Part shown: piece by piece, positions 1,027 through 9,932 of the stretch
Position numbering within the stretch: position 1 is the stretch's first letter
Layout: every line of letters starts with the position of its first letter
IMG/VR virus record: IMGVR_UViG_3300030329_000796
Coordinates: 1 to 24,558 of that record
Length of the DNA stretch: 24,558 bases
Reading direction: 5' to 3' (one strand)
From: a virus
Position numbers and translations under genes: made by a program
Notes under the pieces: model-generated
What the model was told of the DNA's origin: nothing
What the model saw: the letters and a program-made list of their open reading frames with translations, nothing else
Databases searched by the model: none

Positions 1027-2516
1027 GATTGATACTCCAAATTAATTGCGGTGGCTGACAGGGCTTTACCCGCTTTTACATCACTGCTGACAGTCGTTAT
1101 CGTCCCGTCATTCTGAACATAATAATCGCTTGCGGGAGTCAACGAACTCAAACCTGTCGAGGCTATGCCGCCTTTTATTGTTATGTTTCCAGTAGCTGCG
1201 CTACTAATAGCTGCGTCTGATATGCCGAGGAAGTTTGTTGATGTGAGGTTGGTAGTCTCTACTTTAAATGTTTTTGCATAGCCTTCATCTGTTCCATCAT
1301 AATTGTAATATGCCATAACAAACTGGGAAGTATCAGGGTCGTAAACCACCCCCTGTTGTTGAGCAATTAAAGTGCTATTCACAATCTCCAAAAGAGTAGA
1401 ATCAATTGTAAGCGTAGTTCCTGAAACGGTAGCTTTTTGTGCGTAAGTTCCTAGATTATTACTTGTCCAAGAGCAAACTGTAACTGCCGCTGTCGGATCG
1501 TAGTCAGTGTATTGCATATCAGGCCACTGAGAGTTTGCCGCTGATTGCGTAACCTTTGTTCCAAAGGTTGCACTGCTACTACTGTCGATTGTTACTACTT
1601 GGTAAGACAGATAGTTACTATTGTCTGCATCATAGACGGTTATGACACACTTGTTATTGACCGTATCATATCCAATATCGCCTCCCCCAAAACCAGAACT
1701 AGACCAAGCACTATTTGTTAATAGTGTTCCTGTTGGCGTTGCCCCTGAACAATCAACTAGACTGAGGTATCCAACAACAGATGGGCCACGATAACTAAGC
1801 AAAACTACCCCCTGATCTGGGTCATGCACACCACGAAGGGCTATGAAAGAATTATCAACATTATCTGTGCCAGAAAAGTTGTAAGCACTAGAAGCAGAAG
1901 GGGCATAGGAGACATCGACAGATATTGCAAAACACTGCCCTTTGCTTGAACTATCCCGACAAAACAACAAAGTTTTATTATTTGTAGAATCAAAAACTGC
2001 TTTAACAAGCCCATACGTTGCAGAGGAAACAACTAACGCCGAACCAGAGTTTACCGTAATAACCGTTCCGGAAACTGTGCCTGTATAACATTTTAAATTA
2101 GAATGTTCTTGGCATACCACCACAAAACAATTTCGTAAAGAATCAAAAACAATATCGTAAGTATCTGTGTTTGCGGGGAACCCAACGGCTACGACTGCCC
2201 CAAAAGTAAAATTGGTTCCACTTAGAGTAGCGGCTATGACAGAAAGAGCGTTGCTGTTATTCGCATCTTTAAACGCGATTATGAATACATCATTTGTAGT
2301 GTCGTAGCAAACGCTTTGTGGACCACCCCCACCATATGCTGTAGTGGGAGTGAATTGGTCGGGCGAACCAACACTTGATGCAGAACCACTCACCTCACTC
2401 ACAGTTCCATCACTATTCAAGACAACAGGCTTACCAGAAGAGGTGACATTACCGCTTGCCGTGAAACTTACTTGCTTCCCCGCTCCCGCAGGAAAAAGAT
2501 CGCTTAGATTCGTCAT
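1023..2516 (-). CDS. Fibre-tip/receptor-binding protein (paralogue 2)
   Basis: A 497-residue protein closely related in plan to its upstream neighbour. It starts MTNLSDLFPAGAGK, runs through about six repeats of the type VCYDTTNDVFIIAFKDANN and VSGT, then has NLTSTNFLGISDAAIS and DYYVQNDGTI, and ends GKALSATAINLEYQS. It lacks the second repeat block of paralogue 1. The start overlaps the previous stop by ATGA, and its own TGA overlaps the next GTG (GTGA). Three in tandem with this layout indicate gene duplication. Receptor binding is an inference from repeats and place. Fewer acidic residues are seen than in the other fibres, which has no clear meaning. Confidence 0.8.
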   Translation of the reverse strand: MTNLSDLFPAGAGKQVSFTASGNVTSSGKPVVLNSDGTVSEVSGSASSVGSPDQFTPTTAYGGGGPQSVCYDTTNDVFIIAFKDANNSNALSVIAATLSGTNFTFGAVVAVGFPANTDTYDIVFDSLRNCFVVVCQEHSNLKCYTGTVSGTVITVNSGSALVVSSATYGLVKAVFDSTNNKTLLFCRDSSSKGQCFAISVDVSYAPSASSAYNFSGTDNVDNSFIALRGVHDPDQGVVLLSYRGPSVVGYLSLVDCSGATPTGTLLTNSAWSSSGFGGGDIGYDTVNNKCVITVYDADNSNYLSYQVVTIDSSSSATFGTKVTQSAANSQWPDMQYTDYDPTAAVTVCSWTSNNLGTYAQKATVSGTTLTIDSTLLEIVNSTLIAQQQGVVYDPDTSQFVMAYYNYDGTDEGYAKTFKVETTNLTSTNFLGISDAAISSAATGNITIKGGIASTGLSSLTPASDYYVQNDGTITTVSSDVKAGKALSATAINLEYQS

Positions 2517-4756
2517 CCTGTGTAATCCTTGATGTTAATTTGTGTGGCTGTAATTGCTTTGCCAATAAGATGGTCCGTTGTAAAAGAAGTGGCAGTTGTC
2601 GCGTATTGATAAACAGAATCATTTTGGTTTCCAACAATAAAGAGTTTCGTTCCGTCAGAATTAAACGCCATCCCCATTGGAGAGGTATCTTGAGAAGCAA
2701 GAGAAGAACCTGTTGAAGTATAGGAGGCTGTAGATACATCAAATCCACTGGTGAGGGTGTATTGAATAAGAGCATCAGTGTCATCTCCTACGATCCACAT
2801 TGTCGTTCCGTCAGAATTAAATAATAAATCCTGCGGGTTAGTCTCTTCACTTGCTATGCTAAAAAGATCGACAAAAGAAGCAGTAGATACGTCGTATGCA
2901 CTGGACAAAGCGTACTCATTAACATCATCTCCACCAATCCCTGTAATAAGCATTACAGTTCCGTCACTGTTAAAAGCTACTCCGCGAACATCTGCTTCTT
3001 GAGATGCAACATTAAAATTATGAGTATAGGATGCTGAAGAGACATCAAAAGCTGAACTTAATGCGTACTGGAGAATGGTAGAGTTATAAGCCTCCGCTAC
3101 AAACATTATTGTTCCATCAGGTTTAAAAGCAATACCGGAGGGGGCTGTTGATTGACTAGCGACACTAAAGCTCTGTGTAAAAGAGGCAGTCGAAATATCA
3201 AACCCCGTGGATAAAGCATATTCGTGAATCGCGCTAGCGGAGTTTCCTACGACAAACATTTTTGTCCCATCGGTATTGAAAGCTAAACCTGTTGGGTGTG
3301 TATCTTGGGATGATACTGAAAATGCTTGGGTGTAAGTAAGTGCAGAAATATCGTAAGCGATGCTTGTCGATCCCGCCGCTATTGTGCCGTCTGTCTGAAC
3401 ATAGTAATCAGAGCCTATTGTCAAGCCTGTTTGCACCTCGTTCCTAGAACCCCAAGTATTGATCGTGCCTGTCGCTGTGTCGCTTATTGCGCCAGAGGCG
3501 ATGCCTAAGAGGTTTGTTGAGGTGAGGTTTGTTTGGCTTGGTTGGTAACCATAACCTACTCCGTCACTATCGCCTTCATCGTCCACAGCAAGGTAAGTTC
3601 TATAAACGCTACCATAAACAGAAGGGCAAGTTGAATGCCAATTAGTGCCGTTAGTATTAACAGTAGTGGCATCACTCACAGTTACAGTTGTTCCAGAAAT
3701 AGTTGTTTCTCGGACTTTAGCTTTATAACTGTCACTTGCGTCACCATACAACAATACACATTTTGACGCATAAGAATTGTAAGAAATATCATTGTGCCAA
3801 CCCGCACCCGCACCGCCATAATCAGTTGCCGCTCCAAAACTAATATCAGTTCCCGAAACAGTACCCGCAATTACTTTAGGTGTACCAGTAAACGCATCAG
3901 TGTAAGCAATAATTGTTTTGTTGGCGGCTGCATCGTACGCACACCGAGTATAATCAATATAGTCCGTAAATTTTGTTTTTGTTCCGAAACTTATGGCTCC
4001 ACTACTTGTTGTAGCAACTACACCATAACCTCCGTTTGATGCAAGTTTGTAACCAATAACGCATTTTTGAGCAGTAGAATCATAGCTAATCCCAAATTGA
4101 TCCCCTACCTCTGCACTATCTATAACGTATTCCGTACCCCAACTCACACTTGTTCCACTTATGGTGGCGGCACACGCTGTAGCGTAACTACTATTCCCCT
4201 GATCGGTGTATACAACGATTACTTTTTGATCAGAAGCATCATAAGCGCATTGGCAGTATTGAGTAGGCGCAGCGTTAAAACTGGCAAGCGCACCAAAAGA
4301 TATACTGGTTCCTGAAACTGTTCCTACGCACCCTTGTCCTAAACTACTTCCGTTGTTATCAAACACAACAACAATTTTGTGTTCGTTTTCATCCCATGCA
4401 CAATCCGTATAATTGGTGCTTGCTGAGTTAAAAACTACGGGAGTTCCATACGAAACAAGGCCGTTGCCATAAATTTGAGCTACTACTGCTGTGCCATACC
4501 CTGAATTACCATTGTCTCGATAGGTCGTTATGACTACATTATCCGGTGCGCCCATAAAGCAAGTGCCAATATATAAGCTTCGTGCCGCCTCAAACTGATA
4601 CTCACTACCCAAATCCGCAGCGGAACTACTTATCGGTGCAGCCTTCCCCGCCGCCGTGAGAATGACAGGCGCACCCGCGCTGATATTACCGTCAGCTACA
4701 AACTCTGTGTTGTTTTGACCGCCACCTGCGGGCAGCAGATCGGCTAAATTCGTCAT
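2513..4756 (-). CDS. Fibre-tip/receptor-binding protein with two propeller-like repeat blocks (paralogue 1)
   Basis: A 747-residue protein. Residues 1-55 (MTNLADLLPAGGGQ...) form a short module shared with the next two genes. About 60-390 holds roughly six 45-55-residue units with a YD-x(n)-K-x-V-[VI]-x-Y-x-D core and a VSGTSISFG end. A shared section follows (NLTSTNLLGIASGAIS; GSDYYVQTDGTI). About 465-720 holds five further ~50-residue repeats, with the core GLAFNTDGTKMFVVG and the boundary FDISTASFTQ, typical of beta-propeller blades. It closes with LIGKAITATQINI, also shared. The second block is missing from the paralogues, so it looks inserted. Propellers often bind glycans or proteins, and receptor binding is the best guess. 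Confidence 0.82.
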   Translation of the reverse strand: MTNLADLLPAGGGQNNTEFVADGNISAGAPVILTAAGKAAPISSSAADLGSEYQFEAARSLYIGTCFMGAPDNVVITTYRDNGNSGYGTAVVAQIYGNGLVSYGTPVVFNSASTNYTDCAWDENEHKIVVVFDNNGSSLGQGCVGTVSGTSISFGALASFNAAPTQYCQCAYDASDQKVIVVYTDQGNSSYATACAATISGTSVSWGTEYVIDSAEVGDQFGISYDSTAQKCVIGYKLASNGGYGVVATTSSGAISFGTKTKFTDYIDYTRCAYDAAANKTIIAYTDAFTGTPKVIAGTVSGTDISFGAATDYGGAGAGWHNDISYNSYASKCVLLYGDASDSYKAKVRETTISGTTVTVSDATTVNTNGTNWHSTCPSVYGSVYRTYLAVDDEGDSDGVGYGYQPSQTNLTSTNLLGIASGAISDTATGTINTWGSRNEVQTGLTIGSDYYVQTDGTIAAGSTSIAYDISALTYTQAFSVSSQDTHPTGLAFNTDGTKMFVVGNSASAIHEYALSTGFDISTASFTQSFSVASQSTAPSGIAFKPDGTIMFVAEAYNSTILQYALSSAFDVSSASYTHNFNVASQEADVRGVAFNSDGTVMLITGIGGDDVNEYALSSAYDVSTASFVDLFSIASEETNPQDLLFNSDGTTMWIVGDDTDALIQYTLTSGFDVSTASYTSTGSSLASQDTSPMGMAFNSDGTKLFIVGNQNDSVYQYATTATSFTTDHLIGKAITATQINIKDYTG

Positions 4757-6914: not shown

Positions 6915-7205
6915 TCATAATCTCCTAATCAAGTCGGCTAGTTTGGGTTGTCCAGCATCGTTTAACGCATTATAAATTGTAGTTCTGTCACTTTGAATTG
7001 CTTCTTTAATGTAATGAGCAATGACCGACTCTATATTTCCTTTAAAAGCATGAGCCTGTTGTTGCAATATGGGGTTAGCTTGGTCCGAAATACTAATAAT
7101 CCTGTCTACACAGCGCGAAGCTACTTCTTCGGGAGTAAAACCTCGATTTGTCGTAGTATGAACTTCTACTGCTCCCGCAGACATTGTTAAACCGTTTGTG
7201 ATCAT
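6915..7205 (-). CDS. Small conserved helical phage protein
   Basis: A 96-residue, mainly helical protein: GFTPEEVASRCVDRIISISDQ, then a helix ILQQQAHAFKGNIESVIAHY and an ending KEAIQSDRTTIYNALNDAGQ...LADLIRRL. The SDRTTIYNAL and LADLIRRL ends recur in marine phages beside the tail genes, from memory, with unknown function. The ATGA overlap with the adaptor stop suggests they are made together. It could act as a connector, tail chaperone or regulator of assembly; nothing in the sequence decides. Confidence 0.78.
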   Translation of the reverse strand: MITNGLTMSAGAVEVHTTTNRGFTPEEVASRCVDRIISISDQANPILQQQAHAFKGNIESVIAHYIKEAIQSDRTTIYNALNDAGQPKLADLIRRL

Positions 7206-7852
7206 GTTTTCTCCCGTATAACCATGCCTGTACGATACTCATCGGTGACTTCTTTAGCCTCACCGTATTGTTTAAGTGCAACTAATGATTCCGCATAACG
7301 CTGTTCATATTCTTGCATCAGACCCGGATCGCCTTTCATGTAAACATAAGCTTCTATTAAGCATCCGTACAATAAAGTTAATTCTGCATTTTGACTCAAC
7401 CATGTTTCACCGCTACCCGCCCCCGCTGTCAAACTTGCAGGGCGATAATAGTAATGTAATTCAACAGCATAACTACTGTTTGGCGTTGGACCCAAAATAA
7501 AAGAGCTTACGTCAAAGTTGGCGTAGTAACGCGGTTCTCCCGTAACCGTGCGATCAGGGTTAAATTCTTGTATAAAGTTTACGCTTTTAAAATCTAAAAA
7601 CTTTTTGTCGTTATTAGCGTCAGTAAAAGATAAAGAAAAAGGCGCAAGAAAATCAGTCGGTTGTATTAAATATTCGTCACTGGCCGTCATGTTTCCCGTG
7701 CTATTTTTACGAAACAACGTCAACTGCACCGTTTTCAATATACGTTCTTCAGCCGACCGTATAAACACGGGCAGATTAGTCACAAAAGACGTTTCGGTAT
7801 TCTGCGTATAATCCTGAATTGCTGTTTTAAGTTGATCGTATGTAAACGCCAT
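7202..7852 (-). CDS. SU10-type head-tail adaptor protein
   Basis: A 216-residue protein that matches the adaptor proteins of SU10-like short-tailed phages as I know them. Landmarks are the N-terminal MAFTYDQLKTAIQDYTQNTE, FIRSAEERILKTVQL, the beta segment with PTDFLAPFSLSF, KFLDFKSVNFIQEF, GEPRYYANFDVSSFILGPTP and VELHYYYRPASL, and a helical C-terminus YGCLIEAYVYMKGDPGLMQEY. It should sit on the portal and take tail parts. This fits with the gp4-like protein upstream, though both might have overlapping adaptor duties. The start follows directly on the previous stop; its own stop makes an ATGA overlap with the next ATG. Confidence 0.84.
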   Translation of the reverse strand: MAFTYDQLKTAIQDYTQNTETSFVTNLPVFIRSAEERILKTVQLTLFRKNSTGNMTASDEYLIQPTDFLAPFSLSFTDANNDKKFLDFKSVNFIQEFNPDRTVTGEPRYYANFDVSSFILGPTPNSSYAVELHYYYRPASLTAGAGSGETWLSQNAELTLLYGCLIEAYVYMKGDPGLMQEYEQRYAESLVALKQYGEAKEVTDEYRTGMVIREKT

Positions 7853-8331: not shown

Positions 8332-9045
8332 TTACGGCGTATTCGCCTGTCCTCCCATTCCTGAATGATTAGAACAATAATAATATAAAGTAGGCGCACC
8401 AGTAGCCACTTCGATTTCGGTGTAAGCCCCCGAAGTGCCCGGTGTGCCCGCTGTAGTCACGCCGGTGGTATATTCCGACCCGCCGCCCCATGTACCATCG
8501 CTTATTGTAGAAAAACGCAAAGGATGCGTGGGAGAGCCGTTAGAAGAGTCGGATTGATCAAACCTGTACGTGGAACCCTCGTTTAAGTTAAGAGTCGCTT
8601 GTTGTACGCCGTCTATGTAAAACTTATTACCCGAACCCGGATTAGCCACAGTTACAGTGTATGTAGTAGTTGGCGTAACGCTGACAGACCCTACGCTCGA
8701 CGTAGATCCCAAACCAGTTAAAGAAACCGTCACATCGTTTAAGTTGGTGTTAACAGTAACGTCGCCTACAAATCCAAAGGCAGTAAGGTTTCTCAAGTTA
8801 GGGTCTTCAACCAAAGGAACCCCTACATAGATAGATAAAACCATTGGAGTGGTGGGTCGAGGATTTTTTAAAGCTTGCGGATCACTAATATGTTTGCGCG
8901 GATCTAATTGAGGTTGTTTCTTTTCCCATTCATCAGGACCCACTAAAGCTCCTGTCCACTCTAAGCGCATATCATTTAATTTATACACGAAGCCGGAGCG
9001 ATCAGAGACGCCTAATGCGTATTTACCGGCTGCAAACTTGCTCAT
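8332..9045 (-). CDS. Virion protein with C-terminal cupredoxin-like (type-1 copper) domain
   Basis: A 237-residue protein, in two parts. The N-terminal 95 residues (AAGKYALGVSDRSGF; MRLEWTGALVGPDEW; PQLDPRKHISDPQALK) look like a conserved marine-phage neck or tail segment. At 104-122 there is one copy of a VSLTGLGSTSSVGSV repeat like that of a neighbour. Residues about 125-233 appear beta-rich: TYTVTVANPG, FYIDGVQQATLNL, THPLRFSTISDGTWGG, GAYTEIEV, TLYYYCSNHSGMGG. They contain H174 and C224-x2-H227-x2-M230, exactly the ligand order and short ligand loop of amicyanin-type blue copper proteins. Whether it binds copper, has another metal or is a relic is unknown. Its end runs just past the start of the next gene only if the longer frame there is used; with the start at 8327 there is a four-base gap. 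Confidence 0.82.
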   Translation of the reverse strand: MSKFAAGKYALGVSDRSGFVYKLNDMRLEWTGALVGPDEWEKKQPQLDPRKHISDPQALKNPRPTTPMVLSIYVGVPLVEDPNLRNLTAFGFVGDVTVNTNLNDVTVSLTGLGSTSSVGSVSVTPTTTYTVTVANPGSGNKFYIDGVQQATLNLNEGSTYRFDQSDSSNGSPTHPLRFSTISDGTWGGGSEYTTGVTTAGTPGTSGAYTEIEVATGAPTLYYYCSNHSGMGGQANTP

Positions 9046-9932
9046 TAAATGGGCCTCGCATAAGCAATAGAAGGCTGAATAGTAAAGGAGGCTCTATCTC
9101 TGTCTTCTGTTGCCGCTACAATAAACTCTTCTTCATACAAGGTTTTGAGCATGGTCGTTCGATCTGGAGCAAGTTTTAACGATAAATAATAAGCTAATCC
9201 CGCTGCCAAACATGGGTAAAACCGAAAAGGTACTTCCATTGTGTTAATAAACGTATCGGCATCCTGTATCCGCGTCAGCCTGTTAAAAATAATTTTATCC
9301 GTGTTATTAGCGGGTGTAGGCCAAACTTCAAGCTGCGGTGTTATTAGCCTATTGAGAAAAAATTGATCTACTCGTCCCGTTGTTGTTTTATTCGGAATGG
9401 TTAAATAATCATCTCGACTGACGCGAGGAATAGAGTAGTCAGTGTTGTCTCGACGGATTACTGCACTTAAAAAATCAATAGTGCTTCTGACATCTTCAAA
9501 GTTGATAGCCGAGGACAATGTGGTAACCGTTCCTGTTGTTCCGCCGGTAATATTTTCTCCATTAGAAAACGTCCCTGTAGGAATAGTTATCGCAAAACTT
9601 GTTGCACTCGGAATGCTTGTAATTTGACACGTAGCTCCGCTAGTGCCTCCCGTCAAAGTTTCACCAATAGAAAAGTTGGCTGTAGCAGCCACAGCCATGT
9701 TTAAAATGCCGCCCGGATAAACCCGAATGTTAGCCGCTAAATCTATTGTTGTTTCTTTGATGGTCCACTGATTTAAGCCTCTGTTAGCCCACTCTGCTAA
9801 CAAAAGATTAAGTGAGCGTTTTGCTGTTTTGAGGTCATAGCCGGTACGAACGGTGCGTCCGCACCGCTCAAACGCCTCTTCGATGTAGTCAGCTACATCA
9901 AGCTCAAAATCAGTAGAAGACGAAGTTGCCAT
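9045..9932 (-). CDS. P22 gp4-like head completion / connector protein with inserted repeat domain
   Basis: At 295 residues this should bind beneath the portal ring and form part of the head-tail connector, as P22 gp4 does. The framework is clear: a helical N-terminus (DVADYIEEAFERCG; LKTAKRSLNLLLAEWANRGLN), then FLSAVIRRDNTDYSIPRVSRD, DYLTIPNKTTTGRVDQFFLNR, LEVWPTP and a C-terminal helical bundle LAYYLSLKLAPDR. Between residues about 75 and 141 lies an insert absent from the usual family layout, with two halves, SIGETLTGGTSGATCQ and SNGENITGGTTGT, that look like internal repeats of a beta element. The insert sits at the point where gp4-like proteins have only a short turn. ATG overlaps the previous TAA. 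Confidence 0.85.
   Translation of the reverse strand: MATSSSTDFELDVADYIEEAFERCGRTVRTGYDLKTAKRSLNLLLAEWANRGLNQWTIKETTIDLAANIRVYPGGILNMAVAATANFSIGETLTGGTSGATCQITSIPSATSFAITIPTGTFSNGENITGGTTGTVTTLSSAINFEDVRSTIDFLSAVIRRDNTDYSIPRVSRDDYLTIPNKTTTGRVDQFFLNRLITPQLEVWPTPANNTDKIIFNRLTRIQDADTFINTMEVPFRFYPCLAAGLAYYLSLKLAPDRTTMLKTLYEEEFIVAATEDRDRASFTIQPSIAYARPI

Follow-up and report, generated by a model that had tools for sequence, protein, structure and literature searches.

The gene at 8332..9045 on the minus strand of the window, by which we mean the whole 24,558-nucleotide stretch of the IMG/VR virus record IMGVR_UViG_3300030329_000796 analysed here, encodes a neck scaffold protein of 237 residues with a C-terminal cupredoxin-like domain (ATG start, stop codon included in the interval). 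With some reservation, we favor the view that residues 120–237 carry an intact type-1 copper site, and that the domain is an optional, mobile display module of the virion, loaded late and serving host contact or stability. In this assignment we infer that the metal is copper, when it is loaded, that the domain lies at the surface, and that it acts in adhesion or stability.

The gene and its neck context

Only the minus strand offers an open reading frame here, and the plus strand of 8332–9045 is interrupted by many stops; the preliminary description gave the correct coordinates for this coding interval and omitted the strand. Comparison of the window gene with the near relative L003 gave a dN of 0.11 and a dS of 1.8, and among the near relatives dN is far below dS, also when the C-terminal part is taken alone. 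Because of this large excess of dS over dN, the open reading frame is regarded as a real gene under purifying selection. Its product contains one Cys, three His, and four Met residues, and returned no match in Pfam or NCBIfam scans.

Residues 1–65 (8851..9045, minus strand; phrog_28581) form the conserved neck scaffold, which is common to HTVC023P/HTVC027P, CRP-901/902, DSL-LC04, and 023Pt_psg01. As expected for a scaffold of the HTVC023P/HTVC027P type, this N-terminal part of about 65 residues is encoded beside an adaptor gene. The upstream neighbor (9045..9932, minus strand; phrog_12985) encodes an adaptor-like protein whose DSL-LC04 relative is annotated as a Pam1 adaptor, and the downstream neighbor (7202..7852, minus strand) encodes an SU10-type adaptor (PF24175, E 6.5e-24); PDB searches with these two adaptor proteins gave no match. 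The gene lies within a cluster of terminase, portal, and head proteins, and the window terminase is closest to those of Pelagibacter phage HTVC027P, 023Pt_psg01, and DSL-LC04 (~61%). Phages of the HTVC023P type are treated as Podoviridae in PMC9599517. The N-terminal scaffold (window 8851–9045, minus strand; also L293 3995–4399) resembles a zinc ribbon stripped of its cysteines, with LCDYCG...KVCPDDYE in the DSL-LC04 scaffold corresponding to VSDRSG...LVGPDEWE in the window. Elsewhere in the window, positions 2513–4756 (minus strand) encode a 747-residue protein, probably a fiber, with repeated segments and a Pfam match to the SMP-30/gluconolactonase beta-propeller (E 1.6e-6), and the start of a 497-residue protein encoded at 1023–2516 is similar to the start of this protein.

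In other phages, the scaffold stops at about 100 residues or bears different C-terminal parts. In 023Pt_psg01 (L089 2950–4047), the adaptor, a relative of the upstream neighbor, carries the cupredoxin domain as an N-terminal fusion, and the adjacent scaffold protein is devoid of it. This adaptor fusion is the strongest indication that the neck is the proper place of the domain, and it shows that the domain has changed position between two neighboring genes. The initial placement of the domain in a virion neck or tail protein is thus upheld by the neighboring adaptor genes, the adaptor fusion, and relatives annotated by their depositors as virion structural or tail-fiber proteins.

Predicted fold and relationship to known cupredoxins

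The cupredoxin-like domain (residues 120–237; 8335..8688, minus strand) is assigned from structure prediction and fold matches. The AF2 model of these residues, built with 97 relatives and thus on an alignment of 98 divergent domain copies (A2), consists mainly of beta strands, with a pLDDT of 95.2 and a pTM of 0.87; a prediction of the full protein from the bare sequence reached a pLDDT of 37 and was set aside. In the Foldseek comparison with the PDB, copper-protein entries were found throughout the 50 matches listed, including rusticyanin (3.8e-4), a three-domain nitrite reductase (5e-4), AcoP, amicyanin, pseudoazurin, laccases, and other multicopper oxidases. Superposition with VIA-align on residues 24–131 of 2dv6_A gave a Z score of 10.0 and an rmsd of 2.4 Å over 97 residues. 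Together, the AF2, Foldseek, and VIA-align results predict the Greek-key beta-barrel of the cupredoxin superfamily, and the beta-rich C-terminal fold proposed in the preliminary description is borne out by a confident model whose listed PDB matches are copper-protein entries. Matches in BFVD placed the same domain in virion, tail-fiber, and baseplate proteins of cyanophages. The BFVD entries A0A481Z6J5 and A0A481Z7Q7, small pithovirus "beta-sandwich proteins", also match the model (Foldseek E 1.6e-5).

For comparison at the sequence level, we built a profile of five cupredoxins, namely amicyanin (letters checked against PDB 1aac) and four PF00127 proteins from marine genomes. Alignment of this profile with A2 by hhalign gave a pairwise E of 9.9e-5 and a probability of 58%, and placed H174, C224, H227, and M230 of the phage domain on H53, C92, H95, and M98 of amicyanin, so that the type-1 set His...Cys-His-Met occurs in order and aligned to known ligands. 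The ligand loop taken alone also aligns with that of amicyanin. The divergent alignment A2 was required for this result; with the narrow alignment A3, hhalign gave a weak match. A search of PDB sequences with A2 (hmmsearch) returned 14 weak matches (E 0.13–0.93), the majority of them plastocyanins, which match the phage sequences position for position at the first His and the C-x2-H; a nitrite reductase, a copper oxidase, and amicyanin were also among the 14. PF00127 matched 10 of the 98 relatives (best 9.3e-5), and no match above the Pfam gathering score was obtained for the window protein itself. A PDB search with the single window sequence returned one antibody at E 0.21 and nothing else, and searches with the more canonical-looking copy L177 and with a full-length profile gave no match. 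The suggested kinship with cupredoxin families is therefore weak but consistent in the profile comparisons: the homology is weak by sequence yet agrees from three sides, and is strong by predicted fold.

Comparison of the phage domain with amicyanin of Paracoccus denitrificans (PDB 1aac) showed agreement in ligand order and in C-x2-H-x2-M spacing at about 15% identity. The residue after the first His is Asn in amicyanin (PHNVHF), whereas it is Pro in the phage domain (HPLRF), and the distance from the first His to the Cys is 39 residues in amicyanin and 50 in the phage domain. Amicyanin is a small periplasmic protein that stands alone and carries electrons in partnership with methylamine dehydrogenase, whereas the phage domain is part of a neck protein, and no signal peptide was found at the start of the window protein. 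The closest folds among the matches listed, rusticyanin (1rcy) and the N-terminal cupredoxin domain of the Hyphomicrobium nitrite reductase (2dv6), share 14–18% identity with the phage domain, and are cellular redox proteins. The domain should accordingly be called a cupredoxin-like domain with an amicyanin-type loop, and neither an amicyanin nor a PF00127 member.

Conservation and loss of the candidate copper ligands

The four candidate ligands lie exactly where the preliminary description had located them, with H174 in THPLRF and C224, H227, and M230 in YYYCSNHSGMGG, and the blue-copper ligand order that it recognized is accompanied by a C-x2-H-x2-M loop with spacing identical to that of amicyanin. 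Conservation and alignment point to the codons of H174 (8524..8526), C224 (8374..8376), H227 (8365..8367), and M230 (8356..8358), all on the minus strand, as those of the first His ligand, the Cys ligand, the second His ligand, and the axial Met, respectively. A chance origin of the motif was rejected, since H-x(30-60)-C-x2-H-x2-M arose in 10 of 300,000 shuffles of the protein's own residues and a relaxed form of the motif is absent from every other open reading frame in the window. An internal disulfide at C224 was also rejected: 226 of 235 intact copies have one Cys per domain, and therefore no disulfide can form within the domain in those copies. Counted over the full-length protein, the Cys is still the only one in 53 of 64 cases.

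IMG/VR was the source of the domain relatives, of which 246 distinct copies were scored for the ligands. The H-C-H-M set is complete in 235 of them, at a median pairwise identity of 39% among the intact cluster representatives. The 74 distinct domains of close relatives show no variation at C224 or H227, and 73 of them retain H174 and 73 retain M230. Over the 34 clusters formed at 70% identity, the four ligands occupy conservation ranks 3, 4, 6, and 7 among the 108 columns. The Cys and the second His vanish jointly in all seven copies that miss either one (ligand-position letters DATM, twice, AATM, YAPM, HNTM, NSNT, and NSTA), and this joint loss took place in at least two separate lineages, the PSS2-like stand-alone proteins and L251. 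Joint loss of the Cys and the second His is expected of a shared metal site. The ligands are thus kept among homologs and do not vary freely, with losses that occur together, in line with the preliminary proposal.

One of the six search patterns used to find the IMG/VR relatives included the Cys-His motif, and relatives were therefore also recruited through the N-terminal part alone. In this set, the domain was present in 17 of 51 distinct complete proteins, and C-H-M was kept in 17 of 17. A second set recruited by the N-terminal part includes a divergent group with HP...C-x2-H-x3-M, in which the ligand loop differs in length and C, H, and M are retained. In HTVC027P-like loci (L351, L356, L360, L361, and others), a divergent C-x2-H-x3-M copy is found at the start of the product of another gene, which lies downstream of the scaffold gene. 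One distant query retrieved no relatives.

The ligand-less copies bear on the possibility that the domain is a metal-free beta-sandwich for structure or adhesion, in which the four residues are kept for packing. Display beta-sandwiches are common on phages, and copies devoid of the ligands occur in the PSS2 gp080 family, L251, L254, and L255, and as the degenerate second copy in S-H9-2. However, the ligand columns rank with the best conserved despite the median identity of 39%, and C, H, and M persist while the loop length shifts. Because the ligands are lost jointly, a metal-free adhesin is disfavored, and we judge it quite unlikely. Some relatives without the site still keep the fold, and the metal is therefore not always needed. 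In the stand-alone copies of cyanophage PSS2 (gp080, L085 3992–4330) and L252–L255, the His, Cys, and His are gone together with the Met retained, and one PSS2-like stand-alone copy is annotated as a baseplate wedge subunit.

Spread of the domain and its proposed role in the virion

A search of IMG/VR for the domain gave at least 600 matches, indicating that it is common in marine phages. It is missing from 34 of the 51 distinct scaffold relatives recruited by the neck part, and is thus not essential to the neck. Cyanophage S-TIM5 and Pelagibacter phage HTVC028P are among the isolates that carry it. In cyanophages and pelagiphages, depositors' annotations place the domain inside large tail-fiber and virion structural proteins as well; it stands alone, with its ligands lost, in PSS2 gp080, is present as a degenerate second copy in S-H9-2, and occurs as two tandem copies each in L006 and L270. 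The SAR86 proteins L282, L286, and L289, encoded on contigs as long as 471 kb, carry the domain behind a lipobox-like start, which points to export. The lipobox-like starts on the SAR86 contigs L282, L286, L288, and L289 read AACGGGG, VSCGGGG, and ASCGGGG, and the SAR86 genomes with the domain also encode ordinary PF00127 copper proteins. The domain is best read as a mobile, optional, cupredoxin-type display domain on virions.

The presence of the domain in neck, tail-fiber, and baseplate proteins would also suit a copper Trojan horse, in which the copper-loaded domain acts as attachment bait for a metal-uptake receptor in the host outer membrane, and an analogous proposal for iron has been made for a marine phage (PMC11705849). 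We consider this unlikely, as no host receptor is known and receptor binding does not usually take place at the neck. The tandem copies in L006 and L270 could be taken to favor copper buffering, with the domain sequestering copper freed at lysis and sparing the particle or nearby new hosts; one metal per domain would provide a small capacity, and no connection with copper genes was noted in the window, making this role most improbable. Type-1 sites of known cupredoxins are electron-transfer sites, and the ligand set of the phage domain is complete, raising the alternative of a redox role at the host envelope, with the site acting as a sensor or handing on electrons, for instance to trigger DNA release. 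This redox function appears very improbable to us, since no redox partner gene was recognized among the window proteins scanned, and the optional occurrence of the domain in many different virion proteins fits a display module better than a trigger.

For the favored display module, the following course may be envisaged. The cupredoxin domain, joined to a small scaffold protein in the neck of an HTVC023P/HTVC027P-like podophage, would be produced in the host cytoplasm in the apo form, and copper would be taken up after lysis or upon encounter with the host surface. The bound metal would then lock or stiffen the ligand loop of the barrel and present a copper-bearing face that either contacts the host envelope or stabilizes the particle.

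No report of this domain was found in open-licence full texts, which is weak evidence of novelty. The fold and the site are already known; a cupredoxin serving as a widespread virion module is absent from the open-licence papers searched. The tail fiber of Alteromonas phage R22Y, for which iron binding through six HxH motifs has been proposed, is likewise a tail protein of an ocean phage that is predicted to bear metal (PMC11705849). It differs from the present domain in that iron and six HxH motifs are replaced here by one His2-Cys-Met site in a cupredoxin barrel. Entries now labeled "hypothetical" or "virion structural protein" can be annotated with a cupredoxin-like domain.

If the site is loaded, virions would hold a pool of protein-bound copper, paralleling the iron idea for phage tails (PMC11705849), and many marine virus particles may carry copper. 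It is possible, as a more tentative extension, that marine phages commonly display copper-loaded cupredoxin domains as a module of the particle surface, that the metal is used in infection, and that virions constitute an unrecognized class of copper proteins in the ocean. The domain offers a concrete test of whether particle-borne metal matters to phage.
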